Shown one piece after another: positions 20,975-43,993 of a stretch of 64,000 nucleotides of DNA (position 1 is its first letter; each line of letters opens with the position of its first letter). The notes under the pieces were generated by a model. That model was given only the letters and a program-made list of their open reading frames with translations. It searched no databases and had not been told where the DNA came from. The position numbers and the translations under genes were made by a program. Source of the stretch: Sutcliffiella horikoshii. Its GTDB lineage: Bacteria > Bacillota > Bacilli > Bacillales > Bacillaceae_I. The stretch spans positions 2,460,001 through 2,524,000 of the forward strand of contig NZ_CP082918.1 of the NCBI RefSeq assembly GCF_019931755.1, in the 5' to 3' direction.

Positions 20975-22045
20975 TTAGTCACAGAAAATGTGCTTTCCAA
21001 TTCGCTTAATTTGCGGACGTCCCCAAATCCAACCACTTGTTGCCGTATCAGGATTAAAATAATACGTTGCTCCCTCGGATGGGTCCATTCCGTTGATCGC
21101 ATCGACGACCGCTCTTTTCGCCGTTTCATTTGGAGTTAGCCAAATTTGACCGTCAGCAACAGCTGTAAACGCAAGCGGTTCAAAGATTACCCCTGATACT
21201 GTATTTGGAAAAGTCGGTGAATTGATACGGTTTAGGATTACTGCAGCTACCGCAATTTGACCCTCATACGGTTCCCCGCGCGCTTCCCCGTAAACGGCAT
21301 TTGCCATCAATTGAATATCATTTTCCGAAAATCCACCAGGCATATTGGTTGCACTCTGTGCTTCTCCTTCATCTTCTGCCGGTTGATCTTCAGGAGCTGC
21401 CTGTTCTTCAGGAGCTGGTTCTGGTTGTTGTTGTTCCGGCGCTGGTTGCTGCTCTGGCGCTGGCTGCTGTTCCGGTGCTGGTTGCTCCGGAGCTGGCTGC
21501 TCTTGTTGTTGTCCTGGAGCAGGTTGTTGTTGATTAGGTGCAGGTTTCGCTTGATCCTTTTGCGGAGCAGGGGTTTGCTTTTGATATTGAGTTTTTTGCT
21601 TTGCCCACTGATTTGTTGCTCCTTGCTTAGCCTTATCAACCGTTGCTTGGGATGGTTCTACTTGATACTTTAGTTCCATACCGCCGTAATGCGTGAATTT
21701 TTTACCGGAATTAATCTGTTGATGTACCCAATCTTTATAGAATTTTGTAGACTTATGAAGCATTTCTTTCGTTTTAGGCCCAACCAGTCCATCCACTTGA
21801 TCTAGACCAAATTCCTGCTGAAAGTTTTTTACAGCCCAATATGTGGTCCATCCATATACCCCATCAATCCTTGCATGGTAATAACCGTTATATTGGAGGC
21901 GTGCTTGCAATTCGACAACATCATTACCTGTCGCGCCTTTTTGAATGATTTGTTCAGAAAAGGCACTGGCTGAGTTTTGATTTATCGAAAATAACATACA
22001 TGTGCTAAAAAGAAACATACATGAAATTATTAGTAACCGTTTCAC
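20975..22045 (-). CDS. sleB: Spore cortex-lytic enzyme SleB with expanded low-complexity linker
   Basis: Lytic transglycosylase that degrades muramic-lactam cortex during germination. Order: signal peptide (1-28, ending NSASA), peptidoglycan-binding domain (about 36-97), Pro/Gln/Glu/Ala linker (about 158-230), catalytic hydrolase domain (about 240-356) with the catalytic Glu in VYGEARGEPYEGQIA (E254). At 356 residues it is about 50 longer than B. subtilis SleB (305), mainly because of repeated PAPEQQ units in the linker. GTG start at 22045 behind AAAGGAGG. It forms an operon with ypeB. Confidence 0.95.
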   Translation of the reverse strand: MKRLLIISCMFLFSTCMLFSINQNSASAFSEQIIQKGATGNDVVELQARLQYNGYYHARIDGVYGWTTYWAVKNFQQEFGLDQVDGLVGPKTKEMLHKSTKFYKDWVHQQINSGKKFTHYGGMELKYQVEPSQATVDKAKQGATNQWAKQKTQYQKQTPAPQKDQAKPAPNQQQPAPGQQQEQPAPEQPAPEQQPAPEQQPAPEQQQPEPAPEEQAAPEDQPAEDEGEAQSATNMPGGFSENDIQLMANAVYGEARGEPYEGQIAVAAVILNRINSPTFPNTVSGVIFEPLAFTAVADGQIWLTPNETAKRAVVDAINGMDPSEGATYYFNPDTATSGWIWGRPQIKRIGKHIFCD

Positions 22046-38889: not shown

Positions 38890-40176
38890 TTACATAATTC
38901 CGATGCTTGCCATAATAATAGCCACCACAACAGCTACAGTTGGAATCAATAATGCTACCACTGCGATGTCCTTATAAGAATCTTTATGGGTTAGACCCGT
39001 TACCGCAAAAAGCGTAAGTAATGCGCCATTATGAGGTAAAATTGAAGCCCCTGAGGCAATGGCAGCAATACGGTGAAAGGCATCTGGATTCATTCCGGTA
39101 GATTGCGCCAATTGATAATATTGGTCTCCCAAAGCTTCCAGGGCGATACCCATACCTCCTGATGCAGAACCTGTAATCATCGCCATTAACTGAACGGACA
39201 ATGCCTCGGAAATTAAGGGGTTCCCTTTTATCCCAAGTAGAATATCCGTTAACGTTTCAAAACCAGGAGCAGCAGTAACGACAGCACCGAAACCTACTGC
39301 TGCACTCGTATTGATGATGGCCATTACAGAACCAGATGCACCGCCATTAATTGCTCCAATAAACGATTTGTATTTTTTTATATTAAAAAGCATGATAGCC
39401 AATGTTCCCACAATCAGGGATGGAATGATGTCCCACTTAAAACCATTTAGTGTGATTACCACAATTAATAATGGCAGGAAGGACAATATCCAGTTAGGTA
39501 ATTCTTCAGCTTTGATTTGTTTTACTTCCTGGCCCCCTTTTGGCTCATCAAATGTGTCACCCACTTTGGTTAATCGTCCTTCTCTCCACTTTAAATAGAA
39601 ATAACCTCCAACAGCCATAATCAACCCGGCTACGATTCCCATAATAGGTGCTGAGAGCGGAGTAGTTTTAAAATAAGGAATAGGAATCAGGTTTTGGATT
39701 TGAGGCGTACCTGGCAAGGCAGTCATCGTAAACGTGAATGCTCCTAAAGCAAACGTACCCGGCAGCAGTTTTCTAGAAATATCCGCTTCTCTGAATAGTG
39801 CGATCGCAAGCGGATAGATGGCAAATACCACCACAAATAAACTCACCCCACCATATGTCAACACTGCTGCAGCAATTAACACTCCGAGAATGGCTCTCTT
39901 CTTGCCTAATAATTGAGTGATCTTAAATGCGACAGCTTGAGCTGCACCAGTGTCTTCCATCAATTTTCCAAAAATGGCCCCAAGTAAAAATACTGGAAAC
40001 CATTGTTTTGCAAAGTCGACAAAGCCAGTCATATACGTTTGGGTATAGGCTGGTAAGAGATCTAGACCGCTTAATAACGCTACTACCGCAGAAACAAGTG
40101 GAGCTATCCAGATAATGGACCAGCCGAGGTATGCTAATAACATTAAAAGCACCAGCCCGACAATAATACTGAACAT
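38890..40176 (-). CDS. GntP-family permease, probable 3-hydroxybutyrate transporter (YxjC-like)
   Basis: 428 residues with about 12 transmembrane helices. Family features include LLGAIFGKLMEDTGAAQAVA near 60-80, the loop after GTPQIQNLIPI, and SGGMGIALEALGDQY near 340. GntP members carry gluconate, lactate or hydroxy acids. The adjacent hydroxybutyrate dehydrogenase and the YxjC-like pairing point to hydroxybutyrate. It is the first gene of a permease-dehydrogenase-small protein operon, which follows a long repeat-filled gap. Confidence 0.8.
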   Translation of the reverse strand: MFSIIVGLVLLMLLAYLGWSIIWIAPLVSAVVALLSGLDLLPAYTQTYMTGFVDFAKQWFPVFLLGAIFGKLMEDTGAAQAVAFKITQLLGKKRAILGVLIAAAVLTYGGVSLFVVVFAIYPLAIALFREADISRKLLPGTFALGAFTFTMTALPGTPQIQNLIPIPYFKTTPLSAPIMGIVAGLIMAVGGYFYLKWREGRLTKVGDTFDEPKGGQEVKQIKAEELPNWILSFLPLLIVVITLNGFKWDIIPSLIVGTLAIMLFNIKKYKSFIGAINGGASGSVMAIINTSAAVGFGAVVTAAPGFETLTDILLGIKGNPLISEALSVQLMAMITGSASGGMGIALEALGDQYYQLAQSTGMNPDAFHRIAAIASGASILPHNGALLTLFAVTGLTHKDSYKDIAVVALLIPTVAVVVAIIMASIGIM

Positions 40177-40350
40177 ATGTACCCTCCTTTATGTGGGAGA
40201 AATGGGAATCTTCCATATATGGAGGTAGTATCCTCTTTTGGGGTTGGAAATATGTATATAGGTAGACGGGATGGGGGTTGAGGTTTTTGTAGAGGAGGTT
40301 GAGAGCGATTAAAAGGATCTACTTTCAAAATTAGGTAACTAGGGAGGGTT

Positions 40351-40609
40351 CTATTTGACCGAAGCAACTTGCTTTGCACCTTAAGAGTCTTATAGAAGCG
40401 GTCTATACGACCGAAGCTTTGGCAAGAGCTGCTCTTAAGTCTTATAGAGCCCTTCTATACGACCGAAGCTCTGGCAAAAGCTGCTCTTAAGTCTTATAGA
40501 GCCCTTCTATACGACCGAAGCTTTTGGAAAAACTACTCTTAAGTCTTATAGAACCCTCCTATACGACCGAAGCTTTGGCAAGAGTTGCTCTTAAGTCTTA
40601 TAGAACTCT
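40351..40609. repeat. Tandem 52-bp hairpin units (about five copies)
   Basis: Units start near 40351, 40402, 40454, 40506 and 40558, a period of 51 then 52, 52 and 52 bp. Each runs TCTATACGACCGAAGCTTTG, then GCAAGAGCTGCTCTTAAGTC, then TTATAGA, so TCTATA and TATAGA close the unit and AAGAGCTGCTCTT forms an inner inverted repeat. The first unit is divergent. Non-coding. Confidence 0.88.
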
Positions 40610-40610
40610 T

Positions 40611-40755
40611 CTCTCTTACCGTTTTTGCTTTTCTGAAAGAATTTCGGGCGGAGAGAACCCTTCCGTTTTTGCTTTTCCGAAAGAGTTTCGGGCGGAGAGA
40701 CACCTTCTCTGTTACCATTTTAGCTTTCCCGTAGAAGTTTCGGGCAGAGATACCC
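40611..40755. repeat. Second tandem hairpin family, three copies
   Basis: Three units around 40611-40656, 40657-40700 and 40704-40750 share TACCGTTTTTGCTTTTC, GAAAGARTTTCGGGC and GGAGAGA. Each begins TCTCT or TTCCG and ends GAGAGA, so the closing stem is again complementary although its sequence differs from the 52-bp family next to it. Spacing is 44 then 52 bp. Confidence 0.8.
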
Positions 40756-40765
40756 CCAAAAAGTA

Positions 40766-40796
40766 AAAAAGCGTGCTCATCTGCACGCTTTTTAAA
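40766..40796 (-). terminator. Terminator after rsiX
   Basis: Minus-strand AGCGTGC/GCACGCT stem with a six-base loop followed by six Ts, just after the rsiX stop. Confidence 0.9.
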
Positions 40797-40798
40797 CT

Positions 40799-42070
40799 TT
40801 ACTCGCTATATGGAATTGGGTTCGGAGAGTAAGGCACGCTTACTTCTTCATTGAGTGTGATAGTTCCTATCGTTCCATCTTGTGAAGATTCAAACACCAC
40901 ACCTCTAACTCCAAATTCTTTTGCTACCATCATCATCGCTTCAAGGGCAAAGATTGTTTCGTCGTTATTTTCAAGTACGCTGCCATCCCCTAGCTTAATC
41001 CTAACCACTGTACCATCACTTTCTAGCCCCAATCCCTCCACTTGCACCGTAACAGGAATGGATGGCTCTAGTTTACTGTTCTCAGCTTGCTCTGGTACAC
41101 TTGTCATCGCTTTGAGAGCATCACCAATGGAAGTATACCGTTCATGACCTGGGACAAGTAAAGGCAGGCTACCTGTGTGATATTTGAAATAAGCCCTCTT
41201 GTTTTTAGTCTGGTATTCTACCGGTCCATCATATACATCATTGCCAACTTGCACACCTTTGGTTGATCCGTTATCACTAAATAAGAAATGAGTATATTGA
41301 TTGCTGAAAGTATCACTAAGTTCTTTAGAGAAAAGATTATCTTGATAGGTTGTTAAACCTTTAGCCATATCAGTTACATCTAAGATTGGCATCGGTCTAT
41401 CTAACCCTATGTCGCCTTCTGATATTTTTACATTGTCATTAATAGTCGGCACCATGACCCCATAATCCTCGTATGCAATCCCCCCTCGCACCTTATTGAG
41501 AGCATCTACATATGTTTCATTTTCACCACGAGGAACAATCACCGTCAGTGGAGTGGTAGAACCACCATGTTCATAATTATCTGCCTCCAACAAGGACACC
41601 CCAATGGTAACAGCGTACTCGGATTCTACATTATAGGAAGGTGTAACAAAACTTTTACCATCTGCTGAACTGATCTCCGCTGCAGCAAAGTCATTGGATT
41701 CCTCATCACCTTCTGCCTTTAGTGAAGTTTCTTCCTCTTCTTCGATGGCTTCTCTGCTGGTGTCTGCGGCAGAATCATCTGAGTTTTCATCTGAATTCAT
41801 TGTTGCGATGTCCATACTTTCTTCTGAACTGCTATCAGAGCCACTTAAGCTCATATCGAACTGCATGTTGTTTACGAACATAGGTGCAACCAGGGCGAAA
41901 AGGACTAAAGCCGCAACCAATGCAAAAGCAGGTACTATTTTAGACCGGCGAGGGGAATGGGCTAGTTTTGGTTGTATATCTCTATATATTTGTTTCGGGT
42001 CACGATCATCTTTAAGTTTAGGCATTTGCCTTAACAACTTTTCCATTTGTTCTTCGTCATTATGACGCAT
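40799..42070 (-). CDS. rsiX: Anti-sigma-X factor RsiX-like
   Basis: Holds sigma-X inactive at the membrane. The 423 residues have a cytoplasmic N-terminus with the anti-sigma region (LLRQMPKLKDDRDPKQIY near 12-29), one transmembrane helix (about 45-66), an acidic Ser/Asp/Glu-rich stretch (about 75-135) and a large extracytoplasmic domain. B. subtilis RsiX is shorter (about 370); the acidic stretch accounts for part of the difference. The start overlaps sigX by 11 bp, which supports the pairing. The C-terminal domain has GerMN-like features, but I am not certain. Confidence 0.85.
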   Translation of the reverse strand: MRHNDEEQMEKLLRQMPKLKDDRDPKQIYRDIQPKLAHSPRRSKIVPAFALVAALVLFALVAPMFVNNMQFDMSLSGSDSSSEESMDIATMNSDENSDDSAADTSREAIEEEEETSLKAEGDEESNDFAAAEISSADGKSFVTPSYNVESEYAVTIGVSLLEADNYEHGGSTTPLTVIVPRGENETYVDALNKVRGGIAYEDYGVMVPTINDNVKISEGDIGLDRPMPILDVTDMAKGLTTYQDNLFSKELSDTFSNQYTHFLFSDNGSTKGVQVGNDVYDGPVEYQTKNKRAYFKYHTGSLPLLVPGHERYTSIGDALKAMTSVPEQAENSKLEPSIPVTVQVEGLGLESDGTVVRIKLGDGSVLENNDETIFALEAMMMVAKEFGVRGVVFESSQDGTIGTITLNEEVSVPYSPNPIPYSE

Positions 42071-42596
42071 TGCTGTTTCCTCCTTTCTCTTGAAGTTCTT
42101 CCATATATGCCTTCAAGACCTTTAAGGCTCTATGTTGAGTTGTTTTCACCTTACTTTCCGTCCAGCCAAGAATTTGGGCTGTTTCTTGAATAGTAAGGGC
42201 TTGTATGTACCGCAGGATAAGGACTAGTCGGTGATCGACTTTACATTTATCCAAACACCGGTACATTTGTTGGACTTGTTCATTTTGTACGGCTATCTCT
42301 TCAGGAAGTGGAGCGTGATCTCTGACTTGTTGTTTATTCCAGTCGAAAGTTTCAAGTAGTTTGTTTTTCCATCCTTTTTGTTTGCGAAAGGAATCAATGG
42401 CAACGTGCTTGGCAATCGAAAACAGCCAGGTCTTTTCACTGCTTTTCCCTTCAAAACGATCATAGGAACGCAAAACTTTTATATAAACTTCTTGAACGAG
42501 GTCTTCCGCTTGCTCCTTGTTGTTCACCATGTAATATAAGAACTGATAAACATCCTGGTGATATTTTTCATAGAGCTCTTGAAAAACGGTATTCAT
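42060..42596 (-). CDS. sigX: ECF sigma factor SigX
   Basis: 178-residue extracytoplasmic-function sigma factor. Region 2 (YQFLYYMVNNKEQAEDLVQEVYIKVL near 15-40, KTWLFSIAKHVAIDSFRKQKG near 60-80) and region 4 (RLVLILRYIQALTIQETAQILGWTESKVKTTQHRALK near 122-158) are complete. B. subtilis SigX modifies cell-surface charge and envelope composition. It follows the resABCDE block, now separated from it by the B12 cassette. Its own promoter matches an ECF consensus, suggesting autoregulation. Confidence 0.92.
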   Translation of the reverse strand: MNTVFQELYEKYHQDVYQFLYYMVNNKEQAEDLVQEVYIKVLRSYDRFEGKSSEKTWLFSIAKHVAIDSFRKQKGWKNKLLETFDWNKQQVRDHAPLPEEIAVQNEQVQQMYRCLDKCKVDHRLVLILRYIQALTIQETAQILGWTESKVKTTQHRALKVLKAYMEELQEKGGNSNAS

Positions 42597-43016: not shown

Positions 43017-43574
43017 TTATTTCTTGTAGGTGCTGCTCATTTGATATTGTGCTAGGCTCTCTTTTCTTTTGATGATAAAGGGTGCTCTTTCGTTTAAGAG
43101 TTTGGAAAGGATCGGATACAACACGATAAAAAATACGACATTTCCAACTGCATGGTTTATATCAAATGGTAGTCCAGCAAGATAATATGGCCAAAATGGA
43201 AATCCTCCGACAATCATGTTTTGGATCGAGAAAACAAAACCGAAAAACAGCCCGCAAAGTCCAGCATAGATGGAAAGGATAAATACTGGAATTCTTTTAA
43301 ACCATATCCCAATTGCTCCACTTAATAATCCAATAATGGACCATGCAAAGATTTGTGTGAATGTCCACATGCCAGTACCAAGGACCAGGTTCGTTGCAAA
43401 GGTAGTACCTACTGCAAGAATCACACCTGAAACCGGCCCCATCCAGAAAGCACATATAATGATGATTGCTGTCACTGGCTGGACGTTAGGTACGGAGGCG
43501 AAAACGATTCTCCCCACTACACAAAGGGCTATTAATACACCAAGTAGCGCTATTTTTCTGGTTGTCATCATCAT
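43017..43574 (-). CDS. ECF transporter S component, predicted cobalamin uptake
   Basis: 185-residue membrane protein with about five or six helices, beginning TTRKIALLGVLIALCVVGRIVF, and with AIIIICAFWMGPVSGVILAVG typical of ECF S subunits. Three consecutive ATGs occur at 43574-43568; the third has the best spacing from AAAGGTGG. The start overlaps the DUF4430 lipoprotein gene (last base pairs of its stop), and the leader upstream is a cobalamin riboswitch, so I predict cobalamin or a corrinoid precursor as substrate (CbrT-like). EcfA/EcfT would be supplied from elsewhere. Confidence 0.85.
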   Translation of the reverse strand: MMMTTRKIALLGVLIALCVVGRIVFASVPNVQPVTAIIIICAFWMGPVSGVILAVGTTFATNLVLGTGMWTFTQIFAWSIIGLLSGAIGIWFKRIPVFILSIYAGLCGLFFGFVFSIQNMIVGGFPFWPYYLAGLPFDINHAVGNVVFFIVLYPILSKLLNERAPFIIKRKESLAQYQMSSTYKK

Positions 43575-43993
43575 TCCACCTTTTGATAATCAAAATGAAC
43601 TTCGTCGTTCTCCTCTAGCGTATAATCACTTGCACCGACCATTAAGCTTTCACCGTTGACGGAGATGTTCCAATAATAATCAGATTCTTCCTCAGAGCCC
43701 AGGCCGTCAATTCCGACGATGAAATCTCCTCCAAATCCTGTAGTAAGCTCAAAATTGCGGTCCATGACTTCCATCAAAGACTCCCCTTCCTCAAACTCTA
43801 CAGTCTCCTCACTGATGACTTCTTCGCCTTCTTTCGTTAGTTTGATCGTGGTGGAAAGTTGGCTTTCTTGTTGTTCTTGAGTTTCAGCAGGTGTTTCATT
43901 ATTAGCTGTATGATTTGTTTCATTTCCTGCATTAGCACAGCCTGTAATGGCAAGAGTTAATGATAGTAAAAGTGTTAGTAAAAGTTTTTTCAT
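43571..43993 (-). CDS. DUF4430 (transcobalamin-like) lipoprotein
   Basis: 140-residue lipoprotein: signal sequence ending AITGC with Cys19 as the lipidation site, an Asn/Thr/Glu/Gln spacer to about residue 45, then a DUF4430 domain (about 48-138) containing EEGESLMEVMDRNFEL, GIDGL and SDYYWNISVNGESLMVGASDYTL. The domain resembles the C-terminal part of eukaryotic transcobalamin/intrinsic factor. Placed directly behind a B12 riboswitch and coupled to an ECF S subunit, it is probably a surface corrinoid-capturing protein. Role inferred. Confidence 0.85.
   Translation of the reverse strand: MKKLLLTLLLSLTLAITGCANAGNETNHTANNETPAETQEQQESQLSTTIKLTKEGEEVISEETVEFEEGESLMEVMDRNFELTTGFGGDFIVGIDGLGSEEESDYYWNISVNGESLMVGASDYTLEENDEVHFDYQKVE

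Follow-up and report, generated by a model that had tools for sequence, protein, structure and literature searches.

REP and BIME elements sit at the 3′ ends of genes. The mycobacterial minisatellites known as MIRU are dispersed tandem intergenic repeats of ~50–80 bp, with copy number differing between strains; their units are homologous across loci, and they are not known to form arrays of dyads whose cores vary from locus to locus and whose arms can be exchanged. REP/BIME elements are short dispersed palindromes, at times in tandem (PMC3733652, PMC2267715), and REPs carry a GTAG or CGTC tag, have partners mostly 20–100 bp apart, and in many cases are tied to RAYT transposases (PMC3733652). 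PMC2267715 also covers stem-loop repeats of Bacillaceae, namely Bant-1, Bhal-1 and, in the Bacillus cereus group, bcr1, a MITE-type element of 147–167 bp.

Here, we examine an intergenic array in a stretch of 64,000 nucleotides from Sutcliffiella horikoshii (the window, meaning this whole stretch). The array is real but not local; it is one locus of a dispersed intergenic family, whose unit of 47 bp consists of self-complementary arms and a free core and is followed by a 5-bp G+C-rich linker. Like REP/BIME elements, these are short dispersed palindromes that can stand in tandem, but they differ in their nearly fixed 52-bp pitch and in having no RAYT link. They differ from MIRU, as generally described, in their dyad units, interchangeable arms and cores that differ between loci. 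The Bacillaceae repeats are set apart by description rather than by sequence, no 52-bp tandem dyads being described in the available part of PMC2267715. With regard to MITEs, the arms are inverted and empty sites exist, and flanking linkers are weaker than internal ones. Regular repetition recalls CRISPR, which we rejected: unique spacers are absent and core sequences recur within the arrays printed. The sequence-only reading had likewise set CRISPR aside and had named no fitting repeat class, and indeed none of the named classes compared here fits. No title or abstract opening among the literature matches listed describes such arrays, a provisional absence given the thin coverage of subscription journals.

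Results

The array in the window

Tandem repeat detection with TRF gives period 52 at 40386–40612 and period 44 at 40619–40707. Arm scoring resolves the array, at 40350–40752, into eight units (Table 1). The first five belong to class A and lie on the minus strand, the other three to class B and lie on the plus strand, so that the two classes are oppositely oriented. Unit length is 47 bp in 7/8 cases and 39 bp in one B unit, and all linkers are 5 bp long. Allowing up to three mismatches, arm GCTTCGGTCGTATAGA matches five times in the window, where shuffled sequence averages 0.25 matches.

Table 1. Units of the array and neighbouring features (window coordinates)
Feature	Position	Strand	Remarks
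GntP family permease gene	38890..40176	-	start codon 174 bp from array end; array lies upstream
Class A terminal ('cap') unit	40350..40396	-	47 bp; right arm degenerate (TCGGTCAAATAGA); end AAATAGA leaves TCTAT/ATAGA
Class A unit	40402..40448	-	47 bp; perfect TCTATA...TATAGA
Class A unit	40454..40500	-	47 bp; perfect TCTATA...TATAGA
Class A unit	40506..40552	-	47 bp; perfect TCTATA...TATAGA
Class A unit	40558..40604	-	47 bp; final stem base lost, end is TATAGG
Class B unit	40610..40656	+	47 bp; TCTCTC...GAGAGA
Class B middle unit	40662..40700	+	39 bp; left arm 8 nt short; without own TCTCT/AGAGA stem
Class B terminal unit	40706..40752	+	47 bp; closes TCTCTG/CAGAGA, with TA behind
Intrinsic terminator of rsiX-like gene	40759..40800	-	inverted repeat with T-run; adjoins array
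rsiX-like gene	40799..42070	-	423 aa; named by position only, as neighbour of ECF-type sigma gene
ECF-type sigma gene	42060-42596		neighbour of rsiX-like gene

These assignments refine the sequence-only reading, which saw five 52-bp units closed by TCTATA/TATAGA and three closed by TCTCT/GAGAGA. The unit counts hold, and both families do follow one plan. The 52 bp, however, comprises a 47-bp unit and a linker; the perfect TCTATA/TATAGA pair occurs only in the units starting at 40402, 40454 and 40506, and among the B units the middle one has no stem of its own and the third closes with a different pair. The 'trailing CCC' once counted as part of the unit is the linker, which varies (CCGCT, AGGGC, AGGGT, AGAGT). 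The switch from A to B falls at a junction and units stay paired. Closing stems do change as matched pairs; the A/B stem difference by itself amounts to one base pair. A 'cap' unit like that of the window array ends the A part of an array elsewhere in the genome (G000:C1:309429-309475), and the likeness extends to the orthologues of this 309-kb array.

The array lies, as originally placed, between the rsiX-like terminator and gntP. The rsiX-like product has no Pfam match. A matching terminator stands at the same place in 9/9 orthologous gntP loci examined. In six genomes the array follows directly behind it; three others (G001, G009 and G004) keep the terminator and have an empty site, too diverged for any target duplication to be read. 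The gntP DNA of array carriers is 84.5–87.8% identical to that of S. horikoshii, and the gntP tree leaves the position of G001 open.

Distribution of the family

Further units occur well beyond the window locus. Compared by BLAST with its own genome (4.5 Mb, four contigs), the array gave 60 matches at E ≤10, the weak ones not meaningful, and the right-arm pattern gave 42 matches versus 2 for its reversed control. Lag analysis of 24 merged loci found period-52 stretches in 22, and none at loci 84312 and 1149770. Among 142 units scored at loci obtained by BLAST or by the right-arm pattern, 132 are exactly 47 bp; the remaining ten include some evident misfits. Additional units were recovered with a unit pattern, for example at 2750468, 3742357 and 4105566. 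The class A consensus is TCTATTNGAC - 23 nt - TTCGGKCGTATAGA and that of class B is TCTCTNTTACC - 22 nt - TTCGGGCGKAGAGA.

The class A junction pattern (≤3 mismatches) is present in 9/61 genomes, with its reversed control at zero throughout. Within the genus it occurs in 7/16 genomes, at 30 to 342 sites each; the other nine lack a junction match, three of them having one or two unit-pattern matches, which implies that class A is dispensable. Exact class A matches (40 stretches) fall in named records of Sutcliffiella horikoshii, Bacillus sp. RO1, RO2 and CHD6a, and Allobacillus salarius, saliphilus and halotolerans. The two Allobacillus genomes searched have 47 and 81 unit matches, and period 52 with class A arms occurs in that genus. 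Across 101 relatives the unit pattern matched 14, seven of them by only one or two matches, with four control matches overall; lone matches of this kind are no proof of arrays. TRF places period-52 arrays around pattern matches in G022 (loci L061 and L241), G035 and G090, and finds none at a third G022 locus (L228).

There is a third arm class, C (ATGAAGAC/GTCTTCAT); the symmetric patterns used to collect it may have biased the set towards paired arms. The ATGAAGAC-type pattern (≤3 mismatches) matched 13/16 genus genomes, class A-poor ones included; G004 is weak (4 sites, control 1), and in G010 only the control matched. A second class C variant (≤2 mismatches) matched 19/101 relatives, many outside the genus with 1–5 sites, with control matches in four genomes. 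Among 299 genomes of the taxonomic class it matched 8, with controls matching in 5; G234 shows 52-bp spacing, and the six others besides S. horikoshii have single matches. A TGGTC variant matched 13/299 genomes of the class with no control matches, at 12 sites in S. horikoshii, 70 in G234, and one or two in each of eleven further genomes. TRF also reports period-52 loci in G068, G071 and G234. These three genomes, like G022, G035 and G090, have loci where the period goes with other arms. The arms of G035 (TCTATTGGACA/TGTCCAATAGA) and G090 (TCTATGTGACC/GGTCACATAGA) are paired, and both were fetched with asymmetric patterns. In G022, array L061 switches from TCTAT arms to ATGAAGG...CCTTCAT arms, to which the ATGAAGAC type is related; this switch falls inside a unit, and both junctions stay paired. 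The recurrence of one design in other letters, elsewhere on the chromosome and in other genera, suggests a kind of element so far unrecognised rather than a local oddity.

Several identities for the repeats were considered and rejected. A viral or plasmid origin finds no counterpart in viral contigs (exact junction pattern) or in plasmids (blastn). Coding repeats are discounted in that 52 is not a multiple of 3 and arrays lie between larger ORFs; ORFs of 90–111 aa overlap 3/22 array groups. As for a RAYT/REP identity, Y1 transposase matches (PF01797) occur in 16/16 genus genomes, one or two each regardless of class A (G005 has just a short fragment that contains a stop), and the ten PF01797 loci examined (among L158 and L151–L160) have no 52-bp repeats around them. 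Neither class A nor class C has the GTAG/CGTC end tag in its consensus arms. In class B, many right arms have the sequence GCGTAGAGA, where GTAG stands internally rather than terminally.

Pitch, linkers and cores

The pitch is the strictest feature of the arrays. Arm-to-arm distance is exactly 52 bp in 457/524 same-strand right-arm intervals and within 1 bp of that in 495/524; the scoring counted intervals of 15–130 bp and fixed neither unit nor linker length, but many of the loci came from searches whose patterns did fix the length of the linker or the unit. Deviations of about 10 bp are seen repeatedly (42 at L129, 62 at L012, 63 at L017 and 114 at L095), but helical steps are only hinted at, as values of 44, 47–50 and 55–57 occur too. 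Linkers are G+C-rich: of 356 linkers internal to A and B arrays, 237 have G or C in each of the three central positions, and the G+C fraction there is 0.88 inside arrays versus 0.65 before and 0.63 after them.

Most core columns, the T-rich centre of class A excepted, hold little information, and the arms are nearly fixed, a conservation inflated by the arms having formed part of the search pattern. Classes A and C have an A+T-rich core centre (0/5000 shuffles as high); class B does not (3742/5000). The 10.4-bp harmonic of the A+T profile is the largest of harmonics 1–12 in A (22% of power) and C (20%), and not in B; the core columns fit other harmonics as well or better. Aligned on the dyad, the A and C profiles correlate at r 0.16 (rank 12 of 52 shifts) and those of B and C at r 0.19 (rank 3 of 52). 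A common phase of this harmonic is weak evidence, because symmetric profiles permit only two phases. Predicted curvature, computed from wedge values, exceeds shuffles in class C only, and we therefore rejected intrinsic curvature as a common cause.

Arrays of period 21 or 42 bp (two or four helical turns) were also seen in Sutcliffiella and Allobacillus, some with a TTCGG motif: L009 (G000:C1:670463-670566), L098:5908-5999, L118:3126-3266, L121:7925-7979 and L129:3268-3318. They are possibly a shorter-pitch relative of the 52-bp arrays.

Covariation of the arms

The covariation test suggested by the sequence-only reading gives a divided answer. Within class A (71 array consensus sequences) or class B (23) there is no arm covariation, since arms hardly vary there. 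Two-sided changes become frequent once class C and other genera are added. In class C (30 arrays), 85.6% of cells are paired versus 80.6% in shuffles, two-sided cells number 25 versus 13.3, and the covariation score is 0.183 versus 0.106, with 0/500 shuffles as high in each case; seven pairs show two-sided change (8/500 shuffles), and further pair types stand at 124/500. Fourteen rows of all classes, taken across genera, are 86.9% paired versus 58.3%, with a score of 0.702 versus 0.224 (0/500), although the rows were hand-picked, relatedness and row choice inflate the pairing, and the A-to-C block change supplies a large share of it. Here 11/12 pairs changed on both sides (19/500 shuffles), and further pair types stand at 45/500. 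Inside the class A core, pair 21–27 beats most shuffles (6/500 as high), uncorrected for the many pairs tested; core pairing in this class was rejected.

Stem class agrees within 425/434 units and across 363/368 junctions. The mixed-class units form 9 rows, one stretch being counted on both strands, and 5 junctions are mixed. The true dyad could lie at the junction or in the unit, and the discordant cells of class C, in a comparison that accepts only spacings of 51–53, point both ways: position 10 has 14 junction-only, 6 unit-only and 5 neither, and position 7 has 2 junction-only and 8 unit-only.

Covariation had earlier been taken to mean that secondary structure matters. That conclusion is insecure: a dyad site for a dimeric protein predicts the same covariation, and template-switch correction of inverted repeats may give it too. 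Classes A and B also fold weakly as RNA, A units lie in both orientations, and the strictest feature is a pitch that independent RNA hairpins do not need.

RNA folding

Folding of single units, another check proposed at the outset, shows correctly phased window units to be modestly better than shuffles (z −0.8 to −2.1), the range for units mostly cut in other phases being +0.8 to −2.1. The whole window array, minus strand, folds better than 97/100 shuffles. Over the family, folding is weak in classes A and B, with a mean z of −0.7 to −1.1 in units and −1.4 to −1.6 in junctions; in class C it is strong for units and junctions alike, whichever strand is folded (mean z −3.2 to −4.5). An Rfam search of 39600–41400 returned seven matches up to E 5, the best at 19.1 bits against a gathering score of 100; with no match near its cut-off there, an Rfam family for the class A/B array was rejected.

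Genomic context and persistence

Arrays lie mainly behind genes. With simple ORF calls at 40 loci, 19/25 arrays in gaps are in codirectional, 5 in convergent and 1 in divergent gaps, compared with 85, 25 and 24 of 134 control gaps. For codirectional arrays, the median distance from the upstream stop is 81 bp and that from the downstream start is 162 bp. Terminator-like hairpins with T-runs, identified by eye, separate gene from array at 835 kb, at 1.33, 1.94, 2.87 and 4.17 Mb, and in the window; five arrays begin 24–35 bp past a stop codon with no terminator seen between. Class A units are found pointing either way with respect to the upstream gene. Next to array L021, left of G000:C1:1643995, lies a G+C-rich element (GGAGGCTC...GGAAAGCGAAGCC), presumably of a type widespread in Bacillus genomes.

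Arrays are retained at orthologous places, where flanks are mostly 82–93% identical, and copy number differs between species. At the 219- and 309-kb loci, first and last units match between species and inner units are homogenised within each species; the other four of the six orthologous loci fit this pattern less clearly. Most arrays printed start and end without a partner arm outside.

Discussion

We tentatively prefer to read the arrays at the DNA level, as rows of dyad sites set in helical phase for a putative DNA-binding protein. The nearly fixed pitch combined with free cores, the changeable yet paired arms, the occurrence in either orientation and the 3′ location favour this reading. 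Against it stand the poor correlation of the A and C profiles, a class B that has neither the leading 10.4-bp harmonic nor the A+T-rich centre, core columns that suit other harmonics at least as well, curvature above shuffles in class C alone, and the dispensability of class A. The window array would then be one locus of a superfamily of tandem dyad sites, its 52-bp pitch corresponding to about five helical turns, such that all sites would face the same side of the helix. We infer a dimeric DNA-binding or architectural protein that would recognise the arms and occupy the row cooperatively on the 3′ side of genes, with the resulting nucleoprotein block possibly working as a local transcription or supercoiling insulator. 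Arm classes A, B and C would mark diverged binding specificities, and units would be gained, lost and homogenised through unequal exchange inside each array. A wider proposal, possible but on the doubtful side, is that these elements form an undescribed superfamily in Bacilli defined by geometry, in which arms switch class while symmetry and pitch are kept, and that they are platforms for a co-diverging nucleoid or boundary protein.

A neutral or selfish minisatellite could produce much of the same picture. Slippage and unequal crossing-over behind genes, with arms corrected by template switching and the 52-bp period inherited from a founder, would account for inner units homogenised within species, for edge units that are degenerate and, at the clearest loci, orthologous, for variable copy number, for the lack of the class A junction in 9/16 genus genomes and for the rarity of arrays in divergent gaps (1/25 versus 24/134). 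Amplification can carry a fixed period along. On the other hand, cores diverged widely while unit length did not, arrays persist at orthologous sites, and the same period with different arms in several genera is hard to obtain by inheritance alone. We consider this explanation somewhat unlikely, yet it stays a strong rival, the binding protein being putative and the profile evidence mixed.

Less probable still is a common function in RNA, whereby read-through transcripts would form hairpins in series and these would terminate, stabilise or process the 3′ end of the mRNA. The position at the 3′ side of genes, the covarying arms, the strong folding of class C, the minus-strand folding of the whole window array and the arrays that closely follow a stop codon all accord with it; the weak folding of classes A and B disfavours it, several arrays sit behind an intrinsic terminator, A units occur in both orientations, and hairpins have no use for a constant pitch. 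Tyrosine-recombinase core sites have the format of arms around a short variable spacer, and the 10–14 bp arms around 5–7 bp of variable spacer seen here would suit junctions acting as such sites, or units acting as MITE-like elements with a 5-bp target duplication. We regard service to a recombinase or transposase as very improbable, given that linker-like G+C content is weaker outside the array, that no clear target duplication is apparent, that most arrays printed have no partner arm beyond their ends, and that PF01797 occurs with or without class A and, at the ten loci examined, away from the repeats.

Sequence is the usual basis for defining dispersed bacterial repeats, which tend to be interpreted as mobile debris. 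In the arrays described here, sequence is largely free and geometry nearly fixed across several arm classes and genera. If the pitch is selected, they indicate a phased nucleoprotein structure behind genes in Bacilli; if it is not, they show to what extent geometry and symmetry can be maintained by nothing more than amplification and template switching. The length of an array varies from one species to another and may be of use in typing.

Other features of the window

TRF also detects an imperfect 18/36-bp repeat (GTTGCTGTTCCGGCGCTG) at 21427–21502, perhaps a coding linker, and a 21-bp tandem repeat of 2.7 copies at 1599–1654. At 43017–43993, an ECF transporter substrate component lies beside a DUF4430 protein.
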